From Acidimicrobiales bacterium (lineage in GTDB: Bacteria; Actinomycetota; Acidimicrobiia; Acidimicrobiales; MedAcidi-G1), in assembly GCA_014239855.1 (NCBI GenBank), contig JAAZXY010000017.1, forward strand, positions 1 through 43,860: a stretch of 43,860 nt of DNA. The letters are read 5' to 3'. This document shows, piece by piece, positions 31,571 to 43,860 of the stretch (its first letter is position 1; every line of letters starts with the position of its first letter). The notes below the pieces were generated by a model. It was not told the DNA's origin. It saw only the letters and a list, made by a program, of their open reading frames with translations, and made no database searches. A program made the position numbers and the translations under genes.

Positions 31571-32594
31571 TCGAGGGAAAGTGACAGGCCACGAAGTGGT
31601 CGTCGCCCACCTGACGCATGACCGGTTCCTCGGAGGCGCAGCGGTCGGTGGCCCGGGGGCACCGGGTCCGGAACCGGCAACCGGACGGCGGATCGATGGG
31701 TGACGGGATCTCGTCGCCGATGTCGGCATCGGACGGATCCACGGTGGGCGCCGGTTCAGGCGCCGAGGCCAGGAGCACCCGGGTGTAGGGATGGGCCGGC
31801 CGCTCGTAGAGGGCGTCGGCGTCACCCACCTCGCAGAGCTTCCCGAGGTACATGACGGCCACCCGGTCGCTCACGTTGCGAACCACCGACAGGTCGTGGC
31901 TGATGAACACCAGGGTCAGCCCGTAGCGCTCCTTCATGTCCTCCAGCAGGTTCAGGATCTGGGCCTGCACCGACACGTCCAGCGCCGATACCGGCTCGTC
32001 GCAGATCAGGATCTCCGGATCCATGACCACAGCCCGGGCAATGGAGATGCGCTGGCACTGGCCGCCCGAGAACTGATGGGGTCGTCGGGTCGCCGCCACC
32101 TCGGGGTCGATGCCGACCGCCTCGAGTACCTCGTCCACCCGGGCCTGCTGGTGGAGGCCATCGGACGCCTTCGACCAGATGGCCAGCCCCTCACCCACGA
32201 TGTCGCGCACCGACCGACGGGGGTTCAGCGACGAGATGGGGTCCTGGAAGATCATCTGCATCCGCGGTCTGACGGCCCGCAGGGCCGAACCTGAGAGGGC
32301 CACCATCTCCACCTCGGTGGCCGCCCCCGGATCGAGGACCACCCGCCCGCTGGTCGGAGGCGGAAGCTGGACCAGGGCCCGGGCGGTAGTGGACTTGCCG
32401 CACCCCGACTCCCCGACGATGCCCAGGGTCTCGCCCCGACGGACGTCGAGGCTCACGTCGCTGACCGCGTGCACGACCTGGCGCCGCCCGCCGCTGCGTC
32501 CGGCCGGGAACTCCTGGACGAGGTGCTCGACCCGGAGCACGACGTCGTCATGAGCGGCCGGATCCCGCAGGTGGTCGGTACCGCTCCCGGCCAT
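31566..32594 (-). CDS. Oligopeptide/dipeptide ABC transporter ATP-binding protein (OppF/DppF-like), cassette 1
   Basis: 342 aa. Walker A GESGCGKST (61-69), Q-loop MIFQDPISSLNPR, signature FSGGQCQRISIAR, Walker B ILICDEPVSALD. The C-terminal oligo_HPY extension has SGCRFRTRCP, DRC and ACHFP: four cysteines like the [4Fe-4S] site reported in DppD proteins. Pairs with OppD to drive peptide uptake. Its ATG overlaps the oppD stop by one base (TGATG). Highly similar to the cassette 2 copy (37644-38648), even to the MAGSG start. Confidence 0.94.
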   Translation of the reverse strand: MAGSGTDHLRDPAAHDDVVLRVEHLVQEFPAGRSGGRRQVVHAVSDVSLDVRRGETLGIVGESGCGKSTTARALVQLPPPTSGRVVLDPGAATEVEMVALSGSALRAVRPRMQMIFQDPISSLNPRRSVRDIVGEGLAIWSKASDGLHQQARVDEVLEAVGIDPEVAATRRPHQFSGGQCQRISIARAVVMDPEILICDEPVSALDVSVQAQILNLLEDMKERYGLTLVFISHDLSVVRNVSDRVAVMYLGKLCEVGDADALYERPAHPYTRVLLASAPEPAPTVDPSDADIGDEIPSPIDPPSGCRFRTRCPRATDRCASEEPVMRQVGDDHFVACHFPSI

Positions 32595-33631
32595 CAGGAA
32601 TCACCCCGCCCGTCGGACCCGACCGACACGATGCAGGCCGAGTGGTGGGAAGCGTCCTCAGCACCCTCAGCACCGGCAGCACCGACCGGTACGGGCACCA
32701 GCGGCGGTACCCCATCCAGGCAGTCGTCGATCCGGTGCCGACAGCGGGCGGCGAACGGACAGGACCTACCCACCTCGGCGGGGCTGGGGGGCCGACCGGG
32801 GATGGGCACCAGCCGGGTGTGGGCCGGGGCGTCGATACGGGGAATGGTCTCCAGCAGCGCCCGGGTGTACGGGTGGTGCATCCGCCCGAACAGCGTGGGC
32901 GTCTCGGCCGACTCCATGGTGCGACCGCCGTACATCACCATCACGTCGTCGGCCCGGCCCTTCACCACGCCCAGGTCATGGGTGATGAGGATCATCGACA
33001 TGGCCCGCTCCCGGCGCAGGTCGTCCAGCAGGTCGAGGATGTGCTTCTGGACGGTCACGTCCAACGCCGTGGTGGGCTCATCGGCGATGAGGAGGCGGGG
33101 TCCACAGGCCAGGGCCATGGCGATGACCACCCGTTGCCGCAGGCCACCGGACAGCTCGTGGGGGTACTGGCGAAGCCGTTTGCGCGGCTCGGGGATCCCG
33201 ACGCGTTCCAGCAGGTCGAGGGCCTCAGCCGTCGCCACCTTCCGGCTTCGCCCCAGGTGGACCCGCAGGCACTCGGCGATCTGCTCGCCGATCCGCTTCA
33301 CCGGGTTGAGCGACGTCATGGGGTCCTGAAAGACCATGGTGAGTTCCACGCCCCAGAAGTGGCGCTCCCGCGCCGCGGCCAACGCCCGGAGGTCACGACC
33401 GCCGAAGGTGATCGAACCCTCCACCTCGGCATAGGACGGAAGCAGGTTCATGAGGGCCTTGGCGGTCACCGACTTGCCGGAACCCGACTCACCCACGATG
33501 CCCAGCGTGCGACCCTCGGTCAGGTCGAACGACACCCCGTCCACGGCCCTCACCGGACCGTCGGCGGTCCCGAAGGTGACGCCCAGGTCCTGAACCGACA
33601 ACAGGGGCCCAGCGGCCGACGCGGTGCTCAT
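32594..33631 (-). CDS. Oligopeptide/dipeptide ABC transporter ATP-binding protein (OppD/DppD-like), cassette 1
   Basis: 345 aa. Walker A GESGSGKS (47-54), MVFQDPMTSLNP, signature LSGGLRQRV, Walker B LLIADEPTTALD, and a C-terminal oligo_HPY region with cysteines (SCPFAARC, DDC, SACIV). It is the partner ATPase of OppF. The ATG at 33631 overlaps the oppC stop (ATGA); a longer reading upstream would only run through oppC. Confidence 0.94.
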   Translation of the reverse strand: MSTASAAGPLLSVQDLGVTFGTADGPVRAVDGVSFDLTEGRTLGIVGESGSGKSVTAKALMNLLPSYAEVEGSITFGGRDLRALAAARERHFWGVELTMVFQDPMTSLNPVKRIGEQIAECLRVHLGRSRKVATAEALDLLERVGIPEPRKRLRQYPHELSGGLRQRVVIAMALACGPRLLIADEPTTALDVTVQKHILDLLDDLRRERAMSMILITHDLGVVKGRADDVMVMYGGRTMESAETPTLFGRMHHPYTRALLETIPRIDAPAHTRLVPIPGRPPSPAEVGRSCPFAARCRHRIDDCLDGVPPLVPVPVGAAGAEGAEDASHHSACIVSVGSDGRGDS

Positions 33632-34593
33632 CGCTCGAAAGCCAGTTCGCGGACGTCCATGAACCAGCGGAGTCGGTCGCCGGCGTAGTTGAGCGCCAGC
33701 ACGGTCAGGAACATGGCGCCGATCGGAAACATGGCCACCCACGGCCCTTCTCGGAGAGTTCGCGGGGCGGCACCCGTCACGATCAACTTCCCCCACGAGA
33801 ACCCGTCGGACACGCTGAGGCCCAGAAAGGCCAGGCCACCTTCGGCCACCACGGTCAACGCCATGCCCAGCAGGGCCAGACCGCTCATGGGGATCAACAC
33901 GTTGGGCAGCAGTTCGCGCACGATGATGCGACCGTGGCTGGCACCCAGCAGCCGGGACGCCTGGACGAACTCGCGCTCGGCGTACAGCAGGGTGGCCGCC
34001 CGGGCCAGACGCCCCACCGGGGCGATGGCCAGGAGCCCCAGGGTCACCGACACGATGGTCAGGCTGGATCCCAGGGTGGCGATGAACAGGAGAGCCAGCA
34101 CGAGGCCCGGGAAGGCCAGCATGGCGAACATCACGAACGAGATGAGCCGGTCGACCACGCCTCGGAAGTAACCGGCGATGATGCCCAGCGCCCCGCCGAA
34201 CACCATGCCCATGGCAATGGCCACAAAACCAACCACGAGCGAGATCCGGGCCCCCCAGACGGTCCGGGAGAACACGTCGCGACCGTTGCCGTCGGTGCCG
34301 AACCAGGCGTCGCCGCTCGGCGCGTCCAGCCGACCACCGAAGCCCGTCTGGTCGGGGTCGGCCAACGGCAGCCACGGAGCGGTCACCGCGGCCACCACCA
34401 CCAGGCCCATCCATCCGACAGCCAGCCAGAAGAACACCCCCAGACGGGATCCCTTCGAATCGTCGAAGACCTGGCCGCCCAGCAGGGCCTCGTAGCTGCC
34501 TCGGACCGAGACCTCCGAACCGAGGTCCTGCACGTGCAGGTGCGAATCGCGCTGATCGGGTGTGCGCTCTCCCGGAGCAGGCATGTCAGCCAT
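33628..34593 (-). CDS. Peptide ABC transporter permease (OppC/DppC-like), cassette 1
   Basis: 321 aa with a polar N-terminal ~50 residues, then about six membrane helices. GTDGNGRDVFSRTVWGARISL is the OppC N-terminal signature and EFVQASRLLGASHGRIIVRELLPN is the EAA loop that docks with the ATPases; GLAFLGLS is also typical. Overlaps oppB by 8 nt at its start (ATG 34593; the ATG at 34584 is possible and would avoid the overlap). Confidence 0.93.
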   Translation of the reverse strand: MADMPAPGERTPDQRDSHLHVQDLGSEVSVRGSYEALLGGQVFDDSKGSRLGVFFWLAVGWMGLVVVAAVTAPWLPLADPDQTGFGGRLDAPSGDAWFGTDGNGRDVFSRTVWGARISLVVGFVAIAMGMVFGGALGIIAGYFRGVVDRLISFVMFAMLAFPGLVLALLFIATLGSSLTIVSVTLGLLAIAPVGRLARAATLLYAEREFVQASRLLGASHGRIIVRELLPNVLIPMSGLALLGMALTVVAEGGLAFLGLSVSDGFSWGKLIVTGAAPRTLREGPWVAMFPIGAMFLTVLALNYAGDRLRWFMDVRELAFER

Positions 34594-35593
34594 CGGCCCG
34601 GACCCGGGGGTCGATCAGGGTGTAGAGCAGGTCGACGGCGAAGTTCACGACCACGAAGCCGGTGGCCACCACGACCACACCGCCCAGCACGATCGGGAAG
34701 TCGTCACGGATGACCGCCTCCACGAGGGCCCGTCCCAGGCCGGGGATGGAGAAGATCTGCTCCACGACCAGCGAGCCGCCGATCATCCCGGCGGTCGACA
34801 GTCCGAACACGGTGACCAGCGAGAACAACGACGGCCGCAGCACGTGGCGGAACATCACCCACTGGTCGCTCATGCCCTTGGCCCGGGCCATGAGCACGAA
34901 GTCCTCCTGCAGGGTGGTCAGCAGGTCGGTCCGCAGCAGGCGCATGTAGACGGCGGCCGCCGGCAGGCCGAGGGTCAGGCCGGGCAGGACCATCGACCGG
35001 AGCCGCGACCACAGGTCGGTGTCGTCGTAGCGGCTGGAGAAAATCTGCCACCGCACCACGAACAGGTAGAAGAGGATCACCCCGAGGGCGAAGCTGGGGA
35101 TGGCCACCAGACCGAACGTCCCCACGGTCGACGCCCGATCGAAGGGCCGATGGGCCCGGTAGGCGGCGGCCACCGCCCACGGCACGGCCAGGCCCACGGC
35201 GATGACCTGGGCCACCACCATGAGCAGCACCGACTTGGGCAGCTTCTCGCCGATCACCTCGCGGACCGGCATCTCGTTCTTGAACGAGGTCCCGAGGTCG
35301 CCCCTCACGATGTCACCCAGCCAGTAGCCGTACCGGATGGGCAGCGCGCGGTCCAGGTGGTGTTCCCGGCGGGCCTCGGCAATGACCTCGCAGTCGCCCC
35401 GACCGCCCGCCGTCTGGCCCGAGATGTCGTCGACCTCGCCGGCCGCAACCGCGTCACAGTCCACCGAGGCGATGAACCCGACCACGTTGAACAACGGGTC
35501 CCCGAGCACGTTCATGGCCCCGAAGGCCAGCCCGGTGACGGCCAGCAGCACGGCCACCAGGGCCGCGACGCGCCGCACCACGAACCCGACCAT
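34586..35593 (-). CDS. Peptide ABC transporter permease (OppB/DppB-like), cassette 1
   Basis: 335 aa, about six membrane helices. N-terminal helix, a long extracytoplasmic loop (~40-90) carrying two cysteines (C46 and another in RGDC), then RYGYWLGDIVRGDLGTSF, EAA loop DFVLMARAKGMSDQWVMFRHVLRP and the usual end LLYTLIDPRVRADG. The cysteine-bearing loop insert is absent in cassette 2 OppB. GGGAGG lies 11 nt before the ATG. Confidence 0.93.
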   Translation of the reverse strand: MVGFVVRRVAALVAVLLAVTGLAFGAMNVLGDPLFNVVGFIASVDCDAVAAGEVDDISGQTAGGRGDCEVIAEARREHHLDRALPIRYGYWLGDIVRGDLGTSFKNEMPVREVIGEKLPKSVLLMVVAQVIAVGLAVPWAVAAAYRAHRPFDRASTVGTFGLVAIPSFALGVILFYLFVVRWQIFSSRYDDTDLWSRLRSMVLPGLTLGLPAAAVYMRLLRTDLLTTLQEDFVLMARAKGMSDQWVMFRHVLRPSLFSLVTVFGLSTAGMIGGSLVVEQIFSIPGLGRALVEAVIRDDFPIVLGGVVVVATGFVVVNFAVDLLYTLIDPRVRADG

Positions 35594-35638
35594 CAGGCGC
35601 GCTCCTCCCGACCGGTGGCGACGTGGGTCGCGGTGCGT

Positions 35639-35660
35639 CGGTCCCCGTTACCGGGGATCG
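35639..35660 (-). terminator. Intercistronic hairpin between binding-protein gene and oppB, cassette 1
   Basis: A 9-bp stem (CGGTCCCCG / CGGGGATCG on the plus strand, one G-U) with a 4-nt loop, 6 nt after the binding-protein stop. Likely an attenuator or mRNA 3' stabiliser that raises binding-protein level over permease level. Confidence 0.55.
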
Positions 35661-35666
35661 ACCCGC

Positions 35667-37538
35667 TCAGTCCTCCATCCAGATCTGGTGCGTTAGGTGC
35701 CACCCGTTGACCGTGCACATGAGCCGCACCCCATCTGGCGAGAGCGCGCCGCAAACGTTCTTCACGTTCGAGGCGAAGCCGTTGGCCCACAACGTGTGGG
35801 TGAACAGGATGTACGTGTAGTCGTCGTGCACCTTCCGGGAGATCTGCTTCCACAGTTCCACCCGCTCGGCCTGATCCACGGTGCCCCGCTGGGCGTACAT
35901 CAACTCGTCACGGGCCGGGTCGCAGTACCGGGGCCAGTTCAGCGACAACGCCCCGATGGCCCCGCAGTTCAACCACGTCACGTCATTGTCGGGATCCGGC
36001 GAGCCCATCTGACGCCACGTGACCCAGTCGTAGAGCCCGAAGGCCACGTGCGTGATGTGGTCGTCCTGAAGGAGCATCTCCTTGGTGATGTTGAAGTGGT
36101 CGCTCCAACCGTCGGCGAGGATGTCGTAGATCCGGTCCTGGACGACCGACGGTCCGGAGTACTGGAACTCCATGTCGATCTTCCCGTCGGTGCAGTAGTC
36201 GGGCTTCTCCGCGCACAGTTCGGCGACCAGCGGGGTGGCCAGATCGGGCGAATCGCCCTCCTGGACGAGGTCCGGGTCGTGGTACGGCGAGCCCGGTGGG
36301 AACCACGAGTTGGCGGGACGCAGGAGGCCCTGGCCGATGAACTCCAGATAGTCCGCACGGGCCGCCGCGAAGGTCAGCGCCTTGCGGGCCCGAATATCAT
36401 CGAAGGGCGCCCCGGCCGTGTTCAACATGCCGAAGGTCTCCGAGCCGTGGTCGGACTCGATTCGCACGACGTCTTCGTCGTCACGCAGCACGAGCACGGC
36501 GTCCACGTTGGAGGTGTGCATGCCGTCCAGGTCACCCACGGTGAGGGCGTCGGCGGCGATGACCGTGTCGGTGTAGACGTAGTACTCCACCGCGTCCAGG
36601 TAGACGTCGCCGTTCCACCAGTCGTCGTTGCGTACGAACCGGGTCATCTGGTCCTGGGTACGGCTGTCGAACCGGAACGGTCCGGTGCCCACCGGCGCCT
36701 GGTTCAGCGTCGGGTCCTCCATGGCGGCCCGGATCCACGTGGGCGAGGGGATGTAGCCCAACTGCCCGGTCACGTACCGGGCGAAGTCCGAGGTGGGTCG
36801 GATCAGGTTGAACCGGGTGGTCAGTTCGTCGATGATCTCGGCCGGCTCATAGGCCTCGGTGTCGGGATCATCGGCCGGGTACATGGGCTTGACGGCCAGC
36901 GAGATGAGCGGGTCGACCATCTGCCTCTGGAAGCCCAGCAGGACCGCCTCGGACGTCAGCGGGGTGCCGTCGTGGAAGGTGATCCCCGGTCGCAGCTTCA
37001 CGTCCCACGTCATGAGGTCGTCGGACGGGGTGAAGGACTCGGCCAACCAGGGCACGGCCCGGCTGTTCGTCTCGTCCCAGATGGCCAGGGAGTCGAACAC
37101 CGCGTGGGCCATCTGGGTGGCCGACACGGCGAACCGGTTGACCGTCGGGTTCAAGCCGTCGGTCTCGGCTTCGACACCGAGGCGAAGCGTGCCGCCGAAC
37201 ACCGGCTCGGGCGCTGCCTCCTCAGGGGCCAGGGTGGTCGTCGCCGTGGACTCGGCCTGCGAATCCGGCGCCTGGGTGGTCGTCGCCGGGGCGTTGGTCG
37301 TGGTGGTGGCCGGCTCGTCAGCGGCAGGCTCCTCGGCCGCCGCCGTGGTGGCGGGAGCCGCGGTGGTGGCGGGAGCCGCGGTGGTGGCCGGGGCGGCCGT
37401 GGTGGCCGGCGCCGCGGTGGTGGCCGGTGCCGCGCCGTCGCCATCCCCGTCGGATGATCCGCCGCAGGCCGACGCCACCAGCGCCAGTCCCAGCAGGATC
37501 GACACCCAACCGCTCATCGTGGTCCGCCTGATACCCAT
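35667..37538 (-). CDS. Peptide ABC transporter substrate-binding lipoprotein (SBP_bac_5), cassette 1
   Basis: 623 aa. Signal peptide with lipobox VASAC (C25), Pro/Ala/Thr linker with five PATTAA units (~36-100), then an OppA/DppA-type cluster C receptor starting at GGTLRLGVEAETDGLNP. Family marks: WDVKLRPGITFHDGTPLTSEAV, GTGPFRFDSR and the FVRNDDWWNG segment. It binds peptides or other medium-size solutes outside the membrane and feeds the OppBCDF complex coded downstream. ATG 37538 has a GGGGGGAA run 4 nt upstream; ATG 37517 is an alternative that keeps the signal peptide. Confidence 0.94.
   Translation of the reverse strand: MGIRRTTMSGWVSILLGLALVASACGGSSDGDGDGAAPATTAAPATTAAPATTAAPATTAAPATTAAAEEPAADEPATTTTNAPATTTQAPDSQAESTATTTLAPEEAAPEPVFGGTLRLGVEAETDGLNPTVNRFAVSATQMAHAVFDSLAIWDETNSRAVPWLAESFTPSDDLMTWDVKLRPGITFHDGTPLTSEAVLLGFQRQMVDPLISLAVKPMYPADDPDTEAYEPAEIIDELTTRFNLIRPTSDFARYVTGQLGYIPSPTWIRAAMEDPTLNQAPVGTGPFRFDSRTQDQMTRFVRNDDWWNGDVYLDAVEYYVYTDTVIAADALTVGDLDGMHTSNVDAVLVLRDDEDVVRIESDHGSETFGMLNTAGAPFDDIRARKALTFAAARADYLEFIGQGLLRPANSWFPPGSPYHDPDLVQEGDSPDLATPLVAELCAEKPDYCTDGKIDMEFQYSGPSVVQDRIYDILADGWSDHFNITKEMLLQDDHITHVAFGLYDWVTWRQMGSPDPDNDVTWLNCGAIGALSLNWPRYCDPARDELMYAQRGTVDQAERVELWKQISRKVHDDYTYILFTHTLWANGFASNVKNVCGALSPDGVRLMCTVNGWHLTHQIWMED
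37342..37431 (-). repeat. Five tandem 18-bp repeats coding the PATTAA linker
   Basis: Five 18-bp units (plus-strand consensus GCGGTGGTGGCSGGNGCC) code PATTAA x5 in the lipoprotein linker. The first two differ at one base, suggesting recent expansion. Confidence 0.85.
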
Positions 37539-37643
37539 GCCGTTCCCCCCATGTCCGCTGAGCGACGGTCGCCGCTCATGACCACCACGATGGCCTCCAG
37601 AAGGTCGCTCGTCCAATCCCACAGGATCGACGGGAGCGGAGGA

Positions 37644-38648
37644 CTATTCGGCGACGGCCACCAGGGGGTGGTGACAGGCCACGTGGTGGCCCTCGGCCAC
37701 CTCACGCATCTGGGGCTCCTCGGCCGCGCATCGATCGGTGGCGTGCGGGCAACGGGTCCGGAACCGGCAACCCGAGGGCGGGTCGATGGGCGACGGCAGC
37801 TCGCCTGAGTCGACGAGCCCCTCGTCCACCACCACTTCGGGGTCGGGCTCGGGAATCGAACCGAGAAGCAGCGCTGTGTAGGGGTGGGCGGCGTTGGCGT
37901 ACAGCTCATCGGGCCCAGCCACCTCGCAGAGCTTGCCGAGGTACATCACGGCCACCCGGTCGCTGACGTTCTTGACCACGGCCAGGTCATGGGCGATGAA
38001 CACCAGGGTCAGCCCGTACTCCGCCTTGAGGTCCTCAAGCAGGTTCAGGATCTGGGCCTGCACCGACACGTCCAGCGCCGATACCGGCTCGTCGCAGATC
38101 AGCAACTCGGGGTCGACCACCAGGCTGCGGGCGATGGAGATCCGCTGGCACTGGCCCCCTGAGAACTCGTGGGGGTGCTTGTCGCGGGCCGCGTCGGGGT
38201 CGATACCCACGGCGTCCAGCATCCGGTCGACCAACGCCTTCTGCTCGGCCTTGTCGTGCGGCCCCCAGACCCGCAGCGGCTCGGCCACGATGTCACCCAC
38301 CGTGCGGCGCGGGTTCAGCGACGAGATGGGGTCCTGGAAGATCATCTGGATGTCGGTCCGACGCCGGCGCATGGCCTCGTCGGACAGATCGGTCAACTCC
38401 ACCAGCCCGTGGCGGACTGATCCCGAGGTGGGTGACGGCAACTGGATGAGGGCCCGGCCGGTGGTCGACTTCCCACAGCCCGACTCACCGACCAGACCGA
38501 GGGTCTCACCCTTGGCGATGTCGAAGCTGATGCCGCTGACAGCCTTGACGGTCCGACCCCGGCCCACCGGGAACTCCACCACCAGGTCCTCGACCCGGAT
38601 GAGCACCTCGTCATCGGGCCGCAGGTGGGCCTTGCCGGAACCGGCCAT
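37644..38648 (-). CDS. Oligopeptide/dipeptide ABC transporter ATP-binding protein (OppF/DppF-like), cassette 2
   Basis: 334 aa. Walker A GESGCGKST (54-62), MIFQDPISSLNPRR, signature FSGGQCQRISIAR, Walker B LLICDEPVSALD, C-terminal oligo_HPY with SGCRFRTRCPHATDRC and ACHHP, a likely Fe-S cysteine set. Closest relative in the window is cassette 1 OppF. ATG overlaps the oppD stop by one base (TGATG). A 105-nt gap without clear structure separates it from the cassette 1 binding-protein gene, so readthrough between cassettes is possible. Confidence 0.94.
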   Translation of the reverse strand: MAGSGKAHLRPDDEVLIRVEDLVVEFPVGRGRTVKAVSGISFDIAKGETLGLVGESGCGKSTTGRALIQLPSPTSGSVRHGLVELTDLSDEAMRRRRTDIQMIFQDPISSLNPRRTVGDIVAEPLRVWGPHDKAEQKALVDRMLDAVGIDPDAARDKHPHEFSGGQCQRISIARSLVVDPELLICDEPVSALDVSVQAQILNLLEDLKAEYGLTLVFIAHDLAVVKNVSDRVAVMYLGKLCEVAGPDELYANAAHPYTALLLGSIPEPDPEVVVDEGLVDSGELPSPIDPPSGCRFRTRCPHATDRCAAEEPQMREVAEGHHVACHHPLVAVAE

Positions 38649-39790
38649 CAGACGATCCTCTCATTGCCAGTCGGAAGGGGGGCGCTCATCTGGTCGCCGG
38701 TCGGCAGGTCGACGGCCACGGCCTGCGGCAGGCCGTCGGACACGTTGCGGGCGAAGGCCTCAGCCCCTTCAGGTGAACCGACGGGCGTGAAGCAGGCAAA
38801 CGCATGGTCGGGGTCATCGCCCGAACCGCCGGTGGTCAGGGGTGGCACCTCGTCACGGCACCGGTCCTGGACGTAGGGACACCGGGGGCTGAACGCACAA
38901 CCCGACGGCGGGTCGATGAGATCAGGCGGCCGACCGGTGATGGCCGCCAGGCGGGTATGGCTGGCGTGGCTGGTGCGGGGCAATGAACGCAGCAACGCCT
39001 CAGAGTAAGGGTGGCGCATTGAGGCGAACAACGAGGTGGTGGGCGACTGCTCGACCACCTTGCCGGCGTACATGACGAGCGTGTCGTCAGTGCGCCCAGC
39101 CACCACGCCCAGGTCGTGGGTGACCAGCACCATGGCCATGTCGCGGTCACGCTGCTCGCGCCCCAGCAGGTTCAGGATCTGGTGCTGCACGGTCACGTCG
39201 AGCGCCGTGGTGGGCTCATCGGCGAACAACAGCGTCGGTTCACAGGCCAGGGCGATGGCGATGCAGATCCGCTGGCGCATGCCGCCCGACAACTCGTGGG
39301 GGAAGGCTTTCAGGCGAGCCTCCGGTTCAGGAATCCGGACCTCGTTGAGAAGTGAGACCGCGGTCTTGTGCGCCTCGGCGCGGCTCACGCCGAGGTGACT
39401 CCGGAGGTGCTCGGTGACCTGGCGGCCCACCCTCACCAACGGGTTCAGAGACGTCACAGGGTCCTGGAAGACCATGGCCATCTCCATGCCCCACTGTTCC
39501 TGCATCTCGGACATGGAGAGCGACAGCACATCGCGGCCAGCGAAGGTCGCCGTACCGGTCGTCGTCACGTTGCTGCCGATGTTGAGCCGCATGATCGAAC
39601 GGGCCAGCACAGTCTTGCCCGAACCGCTCTCGCCCACGATGCCCAACGTCCGCCCCCGATCCAGGGAGAAACTCACGCCGCGCACGGCCTTGACGTCGCC
39701 GGCGGGGATGGAGAACGTGGTCCGCAGGTCGTCGACGGCCAGCAGCGTGCGGCCCGGGTCCACCGAATCCGTCTGCATGGAATCCGTCAT
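38648..39790 (-). CDS. Oligopeptide/dipeptide ABC transporter ATP-binding protein (OppD/DppD-like), cassette 2
   Basis: 380 aa. Walker A GESGSGKT (53-60), MVFQDPVTSLNP, signature LSGGMRQRI, Walker B LLFADEPTTALD, and SGCAFSPRCPYVQDRC plus FAC at the C-terminus (probable Fe-S ligands). About 40 residues follow the last cysteine, an extension not seen in cassette 1 OppD. ATG 39790 overlaps the oppC stop (TGATG); the in-frame ATG at residue 5 is an alternative. Confidence 0.94.
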   Translation of the reverse strand: MTDSMQTDSVDPGRTLLAVDDLRTTFSIPAGDVKAVRGVSFSLDRGRTLGIVGESGSGKTVLARSIMRLNIGSNVTTTGTATFAGRDVLSLSMSEMQEQWGMEMAMVFQDPVTSLNPLVRVGRQVTEHLRSHLGVSRAEAHKTAVSLLNEVRIPEPEARLKAFPHELSGGMRQRICIAIALACEPTLLFADEPTTALDVTVQHQILNLLGREQRDRDMAMVLVTHDLGVVAGRTDDTLVMYAGKVVEQSPTTSLFASMRHPYSEALLRSLPRTSHASHTRLAAITGRPPDLIDPPSGCAFSPRCPYVQDRCRDEVPPLTTGGSGDDPDHAFACFTPVGSPEGAEAFARNVSDGLPQAVAVDLPTGDQMSAPLPTGNERIV

Positions 39791-40638
39791 CAGAGGGCCG
39801 CCGATCGCACGGCCTTGGACCGTCGGAGATGGTCCCCGACGTTGTTGAGCGAGTACACGGTGAACACCAGGGCCAGCGACGGCCAGATTGCCGGCCAGAC
39901 GTTGATGGTCAGGTCGACCCGTGCCGCGTTGACCATGTTCCCCCACGAGGCGGTCGGGGGCTCCACGCTGAGGCCCAGGAAGGCCAAAGCACCTTCCAAC
40001 AGGATGATGACCGCCGCGTTGACCAGCGCGAAGGCCATGAGCGTGGGCAAGCAGTTCGGGATGATCTCGCGGAACAGGATGGTGCGTTTGCGGGTGCCGA
40101 TGGCCCGTGCCGCCATCACGAACTCCCGCCGGCTGACGGCCAACGCTGTGGCCCGTGCCACCCGCGTATAGGGCGGAATGGACAGGAACCCGACCACTGC
40201 GGCGATGACCATGAGGTCCCTTCGTCCCAGCAGCGTGACCACGGTGAGCAGCAGCACCAGGCCGGGGAAGGCCAGGATCACGTCGACCGCCGCCATGATC
40301 GTGGCGTCGGTTTTGCCGCGGACGAAGCCCACCAGTGCCCCGAAGAACCCCCCGAACACCGAACCCATGACCACCGCGGTCATCGACACCACGAGCGACA
40401 CCCGGGCGCCGTAGACGATGCGAGCCAGGATGTCCCGGCTGTTGTTGTCGGTCCCCATCAGGTGGTTCCACGACGGCCGTTCGTTGGTCGCCCCGTCGCC
40501 GAACAGGAAGCCCTGGTAGTTCGGATCCTTGAGCCCCGGGATGAGGTCGGCGAAGATCGCCCCGAGGACGATCACGATGAGCCAGCCCGCGCAGATGCGG
40601 GTGAAGAAGGACATGCGGGAACCCGTTCCGGCGGCCAT
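39790..40638 (-). CDS. Peptide ABC transporter permease (OppC/DppC-like), cassette 2
   Basis: 282 aa with about six membrane helices. GTDNNSRDILARIVYGARVSL, EAA loop EFVMAARAIGTRKRTILFREIIPN and GALAFLGLS are the OppC marks. Lacks the ~35-residue polar N-terminal tail of cassette 1 OppC. Starts 1 nt after the oppB stop; GGAAGG lies 9 nt before the ATG. Confidence 0.93.
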   Translation of the reverse strand: MAAGTGSRMSFFTRICAGWLIVIVLGAIFADLIPGLKDPNYQGFLFGDGATNERPSWNHLMGTDNNSRDILARIVYGARVSLVVSMTAVVMGSVFGGFFGALVGFVRGKTDATIMAAVDVILAFPGLVLLLTVVTLLGRRDLMVIAAVVGFLSIPPYTRVARATALAVSRREFVMAARAIGTRKRTILFREIIPNCLPTLMAFALVNAAVIILLEGALAFLGLSVEPPTASWGNMVNAARVDLTINVWPAIWPSLALVFTVYSLNNVGDHLRRSKAVRSAAL

Positions 40639-40639
40639 G

Positions 40640-41593
40640 TCAGTCGGCCTTCCGGATGCGGGGGTCGACCACCATGTAGATCAGGTCGACGGCCGTGTTG
40701 ACCAGCACGTAGATGGTGGCGATGAGCACGGTGATGCCCTGCACCATCATGAAATCACGCTGGAAGATGGCGTCCAGCAGGCGTTTGCCCAGACCGGGCA
40801 TGGCGAACAGGAACTCCACGACCACCGTGCCGCCCAGCAGCGTGCCGATGTTGAGGCCGACCACCGTGATGAGGGTCAGGGAACTGGGACGGAGACAGTG
40901 TCGGAACAGGATGTACCGGTTGCCGAGGCCCTTGGCCCGGGCCGACAGCACGTAGTTCTCCTGCAGGGTGTTCATGACGTCGGATCGCACCACCCGGGTG
41001 TAGACGGCAATCTCGATGAGGGCCAGCGACAGGGCGGGCAGGATGACGGTCTTCAGGTTGTCCAGCAGGCCGTTGGAGAATCGGTTCCAGCCGGTGGCCG
41101 GGAGCCATCCCAGCTTCATGGCGAAGATGTAGATCATGAGCAGGCCGGCCACGAACCCCGGGATGCTGAGGAACAACTGCGCCATGCCGGAGATGACCTG
41201 GTCCACACGCGAGCCCTCGCGGTAGGCAGCCATCACCCCCAGTGGTATGGCCAGCATCACGGAGAACAGGACGGTGACGATCATCAGTTCAGCGGTCACC
41301 GGGAGACGATGGGTGATCTCACTGCTGACCGTGCGTGAGGTGACGATCGAGTCGCCGAAGTTGCCCTGGACGGCGTCGCCCAACCAGCGGCCGTAGCGCA
41401 CGATCATCGGATCGTTGAGGCCCCACTCCTCCCGGACCTGCTCCACGAACTCGCGGTCCTGCTGGGCGTCGATGGGAATGAGCGCGTTGATGGCGTCACC
41501 GGGCAGCAGGTTGACGAGCAGGAACGTCAGAAACGAGACGGCCAGCAGGGTGGCCACCAGGCGCACCAGTCGCTTGGCGATGAACGGAAGCAC
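40640..41593 (-). CDS. Peptide ABC transporter permease (OppB/DppB-like), cassette 2
   Basis: 317 aa, about six membrane helices. LPGDAINALIP after helix 1, RYGRWLGDAVQGNFGDSI, EAA loop NYVLSARAKGLGNRYILFRHCLRP and the end DLIYMVVDPRIRKAD match OppB. The start is GTG 41593; the SD is poor, so translation may depend on the upstream hairpin/transcript context. 142 nt separate it from the binding-protein gene. Confidence 0.93.
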   Translation of the reverse strand: MLPFIAKRLVRLVATLLAVSFLTFLLVNLLPGDAINALIPIDAQQDREFVEQVREEWGLNDPMIVRYGRWLGDAVQGNFGDSIVTSRTVSSEITHRLPVTAELMIVTVLFSVMLAIPLGVMAAYREGSRVDQVISGMAQLFLSIPGFVAGLLMIYIFAMKLGWLPATGWNRFSNGLLDNLKTVILPALSLALIEIAVYTRVVRSDVMNTLQENYVLSARAKGLGNRYILFRHCLRPSSLTLITVVGLNIGTLLGGTVVVEFLFAMPGLGKRLLDAIFQRDFMMVQGITVLIATIYVLVNTAVDLIYMVVDPRIRKAD

Positions 41594-41735: not shown

Positions 41736-43860
41736 CTACTCCATCCACCAGGCCTGACGCCAACGACCCTCCGACGCCGGGTGGCCGCTGCCGAGCGCCC
41801 CGTCGACGGTGGTCCACGTGGCCAGGCCGGTCAGCTTCTCGTCCACGGCCAGCACGGTGGCCGTGCCACCGGTGTACCAGTACGGCACGTCCCGGGCGGC
41901 GATCAGCCCGATGATCTCGTACTGGCGTCGGCGCTCCTCGAAGTCGTCCGTGGCCAGCGCGGCGGCCAGCGCCACGGTGGCATCCGGATGGGAGTAGTTC
42001 GAGAAGTTCAGCGGCGAGGCCTGCCAGGGTCCGGCGAAGGCATCACCCAGCGCAATGGACGGATCGTCCTGGCTGGACCAACGCCAGCAGTGCACGCCAT
42101 GGTCGCCCATGAAGCCGTTGGAGATGCCCAGGGCGATGTTGATGTGCGTCTGCTGGTCAGCATGGCTGAGGTTGAACTCCACCAGGTCACTGGCCGTCCA
42201 GAGCTGCTCGAGCACCGAGGCGAAGGCGATCAGCGTCGGGTCAGGCGGACAGGCGAAGTCCACGGTGATCTTCTCGCCTACAGCCTTCTCGTCAGACCGG
42301 GCCGGATCGTCCACGTACTCCTGGACCAGTGCCTTGCCCGCCTCGTAGTCGAAGCTCGGGTAGGCGTCGGCCACCTCCTGGGAGTACCAGTTGCTGTCGG
42401 CCGAGAAGAACTGGGTGGCCGGGGTCGAGATGCCCTTGCCTCCCAGGGCCTCGATGGTGGCCTCCTGGTTGTTCATGAGCGTCAGCCCGCGCCGCACCCG
42501 CACGTCGTCGTACGGCGGGACCAGCACGTTGAACATGCCGCCACCGGAGTTGTTGCCCTGGAACTCGAACAGGGTCAGACCCTCGGTCATCCGGGCGTCG
42601 CGCACCGTGGCACCACGCAGCGACCCCATGCCGTCGATGGTGCCCGACACCACCGATGCCAGACGGGTCGTCTCGTCGGGGATGGGCCGGAAGGCGATGC
42701 CGTCCAGGTAGGGCAGCTGACGGCCCCAGACATCGGTCCGCCAGTAGTCCGGGTTGCGGACCAGCACCGTCTCGTTGTCGATGTCACGGGACTCGATCAT
42801 GAATGCACCGGACCCGACCGGGGCCAGGCTGAAGCCGTCCGGGTCGGCTGTGGCGGCCGCCGGCTCGAAGAGCATCCCGAGGTAGGCCCGGGACAGGAAG
42901 CTCGGGAAGGCCGAGTTGCCGGCGCTCAGGGTGTACGTGACCTCCATGTCACCCGTGGCCTCCACACCGGCCAGCTTGGAGGACCGGATATGGCCCGCTG
43001 CCGCAGAACCGGTCTGCTGCAGGGCCCACATGTCCTCGACGGTCTGAGCGGTGACAGCAACCCCGTTGTGGAAGGTCATACCGTCGCGAAGGGTCAGCGT
43101 CCACACCGTGAGGTCGTCGTTGGGCGTGATGCCGACTGCCGCGTTGCCCACGTAGGCGCCGGTCGCGTCCTGCTCCAACATGGTGTCGAAGATGCTGAAC
43201 ATGATGTTGTAACAGGGCGACGAACAGGAGTCCTCCCACGGCCGCAGGCCCACCGCCTCAGCCTCCAGGCCGATGGTGGCCGTCCCGCCGTAGCTCGGGA
43301 TGACGGCCGGCAAGACGAGGTTGCCCTCGCCGAGGCTGGAACCACCCGGGGCGTACTCGTAGACGACGTTGGCATTGGATGCCGAGACGTCACCGGAGTC
43401 GCCGTGACCGATCACGGTGATCTTCTGCGAACCACAGTCACCAAAGGCGTCACAGCTGATCAGGCCGATGATGCCCGAGTAGTCCTCAACCGCGTTGAGA
43501 TGCTCGCGCACCCCGGCCCGGTCGATGACCAACGTGCCGTCATCGTCATAGCTGGCCGCGGCAATGGCGTCCAGCAGCAGCGTCGTGGCGTCATAGGAAT
43601 GCGCCCAGAACGGTGCTGCCGGGTCCTCACCCCACTCGTCGGTGTAGGCCGCCAGGAACGAGTCGGCGGTCTGACCGGTCGACTGGTTCGTGTTGGCGCC
43701 GTAGCGAATGTCGGGACCGGAGAAGTACATGCCCTCGGTCTCGGAGATGGCCATGAAGTTGCTGTTCAGCAGGCCATCAGCCGCCATCAGCGTCGTCTCC
43801 TCCATACCAGCCCTGAGGGGAAAGCAACGCGCCTGTGGGGAAACCCGACGAATCGATGAC
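41736..43860 (-). CDS. Fused LivK-type and OppA-type substrate-binding protein, cassette 2 (5' cut by window)
   Basis: At least 708 codons; the frame is open to the window end, and residues count from the ATG at 43805. Residues ~1-155 are the C-terminal lobe of a type I receptor (Peripla_BP_6, branched-chain amino acid or amide binders): LMAADGLL, GMYFSGPD, WAHSYDATTLLLDAI, GIIGLISCDAFGDCG (C118-C124 may bond). From ~171 a full cluster C receptor (SBP_bac_5) follows: GGTATIGLEAEAVGLRPW, WTLTLRDGMTFHNGVAVT, GSGAFMIESRDIDN, VRNPDYW. Because the type I lobe begins mid-domain, the true start with signal peptide must lie beyond 43860. It heads the oppBCDF cassette 2. A double receptor is unusual; the permease fits the OppA half. 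Confidence 0.88.
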   Translation of the reverse strand, partial: SSIRRVSPQARCFPLRAGMEETTLMAADGLLNSNFMAISETEGMYFSGPDIRYGANTNQSTGQTADSFLAAYTDEWGEDPAAPFWAHSYDATTLLLDAIAAASYDDDGTLVIDRAGVREHLNAVEDYSGIIGLISCDAFGDCGSQKITVIGHGDSGDVSASNANVVYEYAPGGSSLGEGNLVLPAVIPSYGGTATIGLEAEAVGLRPWEDSCSSPCYNIMFSIFDTMLEQDATGAYVGNAAVGITPNDDLTVWTLTLRDGMTFHNGVAVTAQTVEDMWALQQTGSAAAGHIRSSKLAGVEATGDMEVTYTLSAGNSAFPSFLSRAYLGMLFEPAAATADPDGFSLAPVGSGAFMIESRDIDNETVLVRNPDYWRTDVWGRQLPYLDGIAFRPIPDETTRLASVVSGTIDGMGSLRGATVRDARMTEGLTLFEFQGNNSGGGMFNVLVPPYDDVRVRRGLTLMNNQEATIEALGGKGISTPATQFFSADSNWYSQEVADAYPSFDYEAGKALVQEYVDDPARSDEKAVGEKITVDFACPPDPTLIAFASVLEQLWTASDLVEFNLSHADQQTHINIALGISNGFMGDHGVHCWRWSSQDDPSIALGDAFAGPWQASPLNFSNYSHPDATVALAAALATDDFEERRRQYEIIGLIAARDVPYWYTGGTATVLAVDEKLTGLATWTTVDGALGSGHPASEGRWRQAWWME

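Follow-up and report, generated by a model that had tools for sequence, protein, structure and literature searches.

A LivK–OppA double receptor ahead of oppBCDF and a constant LivK module in the receptors of a marine Acidimicrobiales family

The fused receptor gene and its surroundings

The window analysed here is a stretch of 43,860 nucleotides that makes up an entire contig (C53) of a MAG of 144 contigs (2.35 Mb, 83% complete). According to the ORF list of the window, an uninterrupted frame of 707 codons runs from 43859 to 41739 on the reverse strand, followed by a stop at 41736-41738. This frame encodes the C-terminal part of a LivK-type receptor joined to an OppA-type receptor, and an oppBCDF cassette directly adjoins it (Table 1). 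A preliminary description of this DNA had proposed a LivK and OppA double receptor in one frame at the head of such a cassette; this fusion is real, and its architecture is near certain.

Table 1. Positions of the features in the window and at the compared loci (E, E-value)
Feature	Position	Strand	Remark
Fused receptor gene, part present: C-terminal part of LivK module and OppA-type receptor	41736-43811	-	5' end cut off by contig edge
Constant LivK module, residues 244-402 of ~410	43335-43811	-	88% identity to module; C-end match E 2.8e-31
OppA-type partner part	~41739-43337	-	ahead of oppBCDF
SBP_bac_5 (PF00496) match within OppA-type partner	42318-43148	-	Pfam, E 1.9e-50 to 1.5e-49
Chimeric contig edge, 54 bases, outside receptor	43807-43860	.	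inverse-identical to C62 ~884-937 of same MAG
oppB-type permease	40640-41593	-	NCBIfam Opp2B E 6e-95, below curated cut-off
oppC-type permease	39790-40638	-	NCBIfam Opp4C E 3e-63, below cut-off
oppD-type ATPase, start approximate	38648-39757	-	NCBIfam OppD subfamily E 1e-102, below cut-off
oppF-type ATPase	37644-38648	-	NCBIfam OppF E 2.5e-117, below cut-off
Second OppA-type lipoprotein, unfused, Thr/Ala/Pro repeat linker	35667-37622	-	SBP_bac_5 E 3.6e-57
PF00589 tyrosine recombinase gene	L050:4463-5512		these four in two genera, including the window's genome
PF00589 tyrosine recombinase gene	L051:3659-4672		
PF00589 tyrosine recombinase gene	L057:3773-4828		
PF00589 tyrosine recombinase gene	L062:7421-8461		
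Receptor polyprotein without LivK module	L153:4240-7923		
Receptor polyprotein without LivK module	L154:3580-6528		
Receptor polyprotein without LivK module	L155:1872-5498		
Receptor polyprotein without LivK module	L156:4426-7263		

The SBP_bac_5 match covers protein residues 238-514 (profile positions 4-275 of 368) and scores 169.5 bits against a Pfam cut-off of 32.4, while the NCBIfam matches of the OppA-type part are of the Opp class, including nickel, glutathione, and peptide receptors, all below cut-off. The best matches of the cassette genes are likewise to the Opp/Nik family, and all of them lie below curated cut-offs. An apparent second opp cassette, with its downstream genes read by eye, occupies 32594-37622 of the window and is headed by the unfused OppA-type lipoprotein.

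The LivK identity of the other part of the frame derives from relatives. The N-terminal 190 residues of the window protein gave no Pfam match even at E ≤ 0.05, but the stretch 43335-43811 is 88% identical to part of a module that scores as Peripla_BP_6 where it is complete (E 7e-23 to 3e-35 in single-LivK chains). Hence, of the two Pfam domains named in the preliminary description, one was recovered in the window itself and the other only in complete relatives.

C53 terminates inside the LivK module, which is a repeat in the genomes of the window's family. The counterpart on C62 of the 54-base edge lies upstream of the leader of another (or the same) receptor, and residues 1-22 of the frame match C62 in a protein search. 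Since the edge is inverse-identical to C62, frame residues 1-16 are chimeric sequence from the contig edge, and the receptor's own sequence begins at ~43811; the assembly has no sequence past 43860, where the preliminary description had suggested looking for the N-terminal lobe. C62 also carries, at 3-815 on the reverse strand, the leader MRTRTRWLMALVAVFTLLAGAC followed by module residues 1-185, which is likely the missing start of the window gene; that C62 and C53 hold one gene is what we infer, and the contigs were left unjoined. On C71, also from the window's genome, a module end is followed by a remote LivK-like partner with no Pfam match on the partner.

A second kind of double receptor exists in the same genome: on C122 (L001:1228-4053), a TauA/NMT1-like receptor (a weak Pfam match, E ~1e-3) is fused to an OppA-type receptor in a protein of 941 aa ahead of oppB. 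Loci L153-L156 carry further receptor polyproteins, all lacking the LivK module; they comprise a Bmp-Bmp-OppA chain of 1228 aa (L153), two Bmp-OppA chains, and one OpuAC-SBP_bac_3-OppA chain of 1209 aa.

A constant LivK module and its partners

Going beyond the preliminary description, other genomes reveal that the LivK half is the constant module of many receptors. The sample consisted of 48 genomes of the window's family, all draft MAGs in which the module, as a repeat, is prone to mis-joining. With the window protein as query, long frames were matched only over residues ~17-188, at 53-93% identity. A search with a complete module matched 62 places, spread over 29 of the 48 genomes, at E ≤ 1e-20, and 40 of the 62 were read. 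The last 66 residues of the module, a query that misses shorter ends at contig edges, located 49 C-ends in 26 of the 48 genomes, with up to four per genome. All 49 lie in frames that run on, by at least 305 further residues in those read. Eighteen of the 40 copies read, from 14 genomes, are delimited by stops at both ends, whereas a contig edge truncates the remaining 22.

The partners recognised by Pfam are SBP_bac_5 (several types), OpuAC, NMT1, Bmp, a second Peripla_BP_6, and a PF00144 serine hydrolase (beta-lactamase family in Pfam), the last being attached to the module with no receptor partner (L054, L063, L064). A further partner is a remote LivK-like part of ~400 residues that matches Peripla_BP_6 at E 0.003 only. 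The longest chain, LivK-OpuAC-Bmp-PhnD (1471 aa), has four receptors in a row; others are an NMT1-LivK-OpuAC chain of 1115 aa cut at a contig edge, an OpuAC-LivK chain with a further part (1256 aa), and a cut chain in which a module end precedes two OpuAC domains. The idea that the fusion is limited to LivK and OppA is ruled out by the OpuAC, NMT1, Bmp, LivK, and serine-hydrolase partners. Read by eye, single-module genes in which the leader is present begin with a lipobox signal peptide, followed by a linker that is mostly rich in Thr, Ala, and Pro, and the module usually lies between this leader or linker and the partner. An AlphaFold2 model of the complete fusion L040, built from a three-row alignment, had a pLDDT of 29.6 and was not used. 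At L050:2-1267, a second remote LivK-like copy, cut at the contig start and with a module end, lies just upstream of a complete fusion in a tandem array.

In the window, as at 11 of 11 loci from genera g1 and g6, the partner of the window type follows a module C-end that lies at a contig edge; one of the 11 (L015) shows only the linker after the module. In G023 (genus g5), the window-type partner follows an apparent Bmp end. The same receptor is a stand-alone lipoprotein at all six g4 loci (second matches at two loci excluded) and in all five records from other marine Acidimicrobiales; its stand-alone state there, set against the fused state in 12 genomes, suggests that the fusion is probably derived, and it is recurrent. 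The module N-terminus is absent from all 12 window-type fused copies, every one of which breaks at a contig edge. However, five complete LivK-OppA paralogues exist (L041, L042, L043, L045, and L047, two of them in G035 and one each in G027, G031, and G046), from which the full length of the window gene may be put at ~1000 aa. The length of ~1000 aa and the lipobox leader that had been anticipated for the window gene are both seen in complete relatives, and the objection that no homologue might combine both domains falls away with these five genes. We also considered and rejected a wide occurrence of the double receptor in the phylum, since among 396 genomes, 48 were matched and none outside the window's genome had a match spanning both halves; this negative is weak, with the best two candidates per genome scored and the long frames of G538 (1497 aa) and G508 (1102 aa) outside it.

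Could the fusions have been created by assembly, through a collapsed LivK repeat joined to the flanks of unrelated receptor genes? Many contigs do stop inside the module, and the last 54 bases of the window are chimeric, as is probably the edge of G041:C49. The latter (L046:7438-7778) has no leader and runs into sequence that C38 carries ~525 bases farther upstream, so that it is either a deletion variant or a chimera. An artefact is nevertheless barely credible and largely refuted, given the 18 complete in-frame fused genes in 14 genomes, a partner type that recurs after module or linker in 11 genomes besides the window's, the fusions with other partners in another family, and two genomes (L034, L040) that are separately deposited records. 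The simpler variant, a stand-alone module gene mis-joined by assembly, is ruled out by the 18 complete genes.

Residues S79, T102, Y150, Y202, and E226 of the leucine-binding protein, which we take to be its ligand contacts, correspond to S, T, Y, F, and D in all 24 family modules and all nine outside modules aligned. The window's own module part covers only the last of these positions and is outside the 33 modules aligned. Across these 33 rows, stand-alone receptors included, 140 of 410 positions are invariant. The invariant pocket of the 24 family modules makes it likely that the LivK half works as a receptor.

The copies of the module within one genome can be very similar. In a comparison of the last 133-216 bases before the module end, which omitted L028, L066, L067, and L068 (no end motif) and pairs sharing fewer than 100 bases, the DNA identity between copies was 95-100% in five of ten genomes: 99.1% among three of four copies in G025, 99.1% in G027 (98.4% over 497 bases), 95.2% in G029, 97.7% between two of three copies in G037, and 100% over 133 bases in G045, where it is possibly an assembly overlap. 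A further copy in G025 and in G037 is only 76-89% identical to the rest, and the copies of the other five genomes (G041, G035, G031, G039, and G046) are only 68-91% identical. The partners had no DNA similarity in eight of eight within-genome pairs tested (the G045 pair being outside the test). Between genomes, G025:C12 and its same-partner orthologues in three sister genomes are 87.6-88.2% identical in the partner and 89.7-91.5% in the module, and G025:C4 and G029:C4 are 93.1% identical in the partner and 88.0% in the module over 166 bases. Near-identical modules on unrelated partners, together with a module that falls below its partner in this last pair, form the pattern expected of gene conversion, which may be the cause of the module identity in about half of the genomes compared.

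No clades of partner types appear in a tree built from 24 family and nine outside modules (three of the latter fused); with mixed support (15 of 30 inner branches starred) and one long outlier (L088), this tree gives a hint of swapping or conversion only. Partners might also be exchanged by site-specific recombination behind the constant module, as shufflons exchange C-termini, and besides the absence of clades, a tyrosine recombinase gene lies beside four of the loci (Table 1). Such an exchange is very unlikely, though: members carry leaders of their own, 12 genomes share the window-type fusion, and only four of the receptor loci read showed a recombinase, which may be an ordinary Xer-type gene.

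The livHMGF operon and the origin of the module

A search of the order in which at most four candidates were scored per genome found a homologue of the module (E ≤ 1e-70) in 83 of 397 genomes, ten of them in the window's family. Outside this family, 67 of 90 rows lie in frames shorter than 600 aa, and some of the longer frames are also stand-alone (L085, L086). The gene order livK-livH-livM-livG-livF was read in L085, L087, L088, L089, and L090. The distance between LivK and livH was counted with 90 of the 115 outside-family rows, the 25 weaker ones (46-60% identity) being omitted: for 69 livH genes, the module is less than 700 bp upstream in 61, 3.6-6 kb upstream in five, and absent in three; rechecking the eight livH genes without a near LivK against the 25 omitted rows left the result unchanged. 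Two of the three without a module (G151, G354) are near a contig edge, and the third, G264 (family f35), has 6 kb upstream without LivK. The only listed module of G264 is fused to an apparent NMT1-like half that has no Pfam match, so that G264 reads as a second lineage with a fused module and a livHM lacking LivK. In another family, a LivK-LivK tandem lies ahead of livH (L081:6278-8884), with each copy 68-69% identical to the query.

In the window's family, a livH orthologue is present in 45 of the 48 genomes, and its upstream region was read in 44. No LivK was found upstream of livH in any of the 37 genomes with at least 1.3 kb readable there. The stretch read is at least 7 kb in seven of the 37 (L101-L105, L107, and L108), 3.1-5.3 kb in 12, and ~1.3-1.5 kb in 18, the last being short, as LivK is sometimes 3.6-6 kb upstream outside the family. 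In the other seven, livH is at a contig edge. By eye, the edge in G022 (genus g5) is the end of an apparent stand-alone LivK, and those in G021 and G023 (also g5) are the ends of apparent OpuAC receptors upstream of livH; in G019, G020, G038, and G042, the edge is uninformative, and G030 was outside the livH reading. G022 apparently keeps a stand-alone LivK.

The operon genes of the family score best as LivF and LivG (L101) and as LivH and LivM (L105), below curated cut-offs. Beside the L101 operon are an aminotransferase-IV gene and a sulfotransferase gene that resemble, by eye, two genes at the livKHMGF locus L088, and these shared neighbours indicate that the L101 operon is probably the same operon minus its receptor. 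G013, which is 96% complete, has one gene with Peripla_BP_6 matches, a LivK-LivK2 fusion. In four of the six genomes scanned (G000, G041, G037, and G031), other Peripla_BP_6 receptors occur outside fusions in frames of 423-524 aa, and these might serve LivHMGF.

The liv operon of the family appears to have lost its own LivK, a second observation from other genomes that the preliminary description did not contain. The best reading is that the livKHMGF operon once had the LivK module as its receptor and that the module was relocated, although apparently not in every genome. It might be argued that the LivK half has become a mere stalk or stable folding domain that keeps the partner off the membrane and spreads as a long repeat with no role in transport. 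This would fit its usual place between leader or linker and partner, the recombined look of the copies, and partners of several unrelated folds. It is quite unlikely in view of the pocket, invariant in 24 of 24 family modules, of the 140 invariant positions over the 33 rows, and of the retention of livHMGF, as judged by livH.

A proposed service of two permeases by one chain

Because LivHMGF is left without a receptor, we propose that it is fed in trans by the LivK half. The window gene belongs to a group of lipoprotein "receptor polyproteins", each found to join the LivK module to a second domain, often the receptor of a neighbouring ABC importer. LivK would have left the livKHMGF operon to become the constant half of several receptors, and gene conversion would keep the module uniform in about half of the genomes compared. 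The partner, here of the OppA type, would capture its ligand and dock on the adjacent permease, here OppBCDF, whilst the LivK half would capture an amino acid, probably branched-chain, and dock on the orphan LivHMGF encoded elsewhere, so that one lipid-anchored chain would serve two permeases. We hold it somewhat probable, from the comparison of gene contents, that the relocated, shared LivK domain feeds the orphan LivHMGF and each partner its own permease; the docking of LivK on LivHMGF, the ligand, and the simultaneous service of two permeases are putative. Of the options in the preliminary description, the loading of two solutes on one permease is less supported, and service of two permeases, the neighbouring one plus the orphan LivHMGF, fits better.

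In several fusions, the partner type matches the neighbouring genes. OppA partners lie beside opp-type genes in the window and at L046, L078, L091-L095, and L097; the NMT1 partner of L049 lies beside two permease-like ORFs and an ATPase (by eye), the OpuAC partner of L096 beside an ATPase and a PF00528 permease, and the second-LivK partner of L056 beside livF- and livG-like ATPases. Among the fusions read, only L056 had recognisable HAAT genes as neighbours. The serine-hydrolase fusion L054 has no adjacent permease gene, and none was recognised beside L050 and L051, which have the LivK-like partner; service of two permeases therefore cannot hold for every member.

Partners with no adjacent permease, such as the PF00144 serine hydrolase (neighbours read for L054 only), would also be expected if the LivK half were a sensor or gate, in which the binding of an amino acid alters the exposure or docking of the partner and nothing is delivered to LivHMGF. 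The import of peptides, betaine, or nucleosides would then track the amino-acid supply, and the full conservation of the pocket in the aligned modules is consistent with this. However, a sensor leaves the receptor-less LivHMGF operon unexplained, and the fused chains scanned with Pfam showed neither a signalling nor a permease domain, which makes it an unlikely function.

The proposed coupling of two permeases by one chain has partial parallels. Among described proteins with linked receptor domains, GlnPQ of Lactococcus lactis comes nearest; according to PMC8025302, it has two substrate-binding domains with different ligands in one chain, which raises the local number of receptors, and it resembles the fusions in these tandem receptor domains. 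The GlnPQ domains are linked to a transmembrane domain and compete for one translocator. In contrast, the fusions are lipoproteins without a permease domain (none in the chains scanned with Pfam; lipobox leaders by eye), they combine receptors of two transporter classes, and many chains have one of the halves in common. PMC8025302 also notes translocators with more than one receptor; those receptors are separate or linked to the one permease, whereas here a single chain apparently carries receptors for two different permeases. As to the single classes, the module resembles LivK/LivJ (HAAT) in being closest to the leucine-binding protein among solved structures (2lbp, E 1.8e-26) and in having stand-alone relatives that head livHMGF, and differs in that no unfused copy was found in the window's family apart from the contig-edge reading of G022. 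The window receptor resembles OppA/DppA (PepT) in its SBP_bac_5 match and its place ahead of oppBCDF and differs in the LivK module in front of it. A literature search, wanting most subscription journals and preprints, turned up papers on GlnPQ and on shared components but neither a free-standing fusion that joins receptors of two transporter classes nor any such case from Acidimicrobiales. PMC10205998 deals with the marine family MedAcidi-G1 and its five genera, which may be the family of the window; in the main text of that paper, the words "substrate-binding" and "fusion" are both absent.

That so many of the family's draft genomes break at the same gene can be explained by a module that is dispersed and near-identical. 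Descriptions of ABC importers usually assign receptors to a single permease, and the linked receptor domains that we found in print are part of the permease chain that they serve. In the fusions described here, a chain combines receptors from more than one transporter class, with as many as four in succession, and one receptor domain recurs in many chains. Should the orphan LivHMGF be served by the fused LivK, the bookkeeping of "one receptor, one permease" would break down in these marine bacteria, and automatic annotation would miss the liv receptor. We suggest, tentatively and from gene comparisons, that a receptor domain may have become a shared adaptor, one that left its operon, became attached to receptors of many unrelated importers, is held uniform by conversion, and couples all of these importers to one orphan permease; if so, one pool of lipoproteins would serve two or more transport systems at once.
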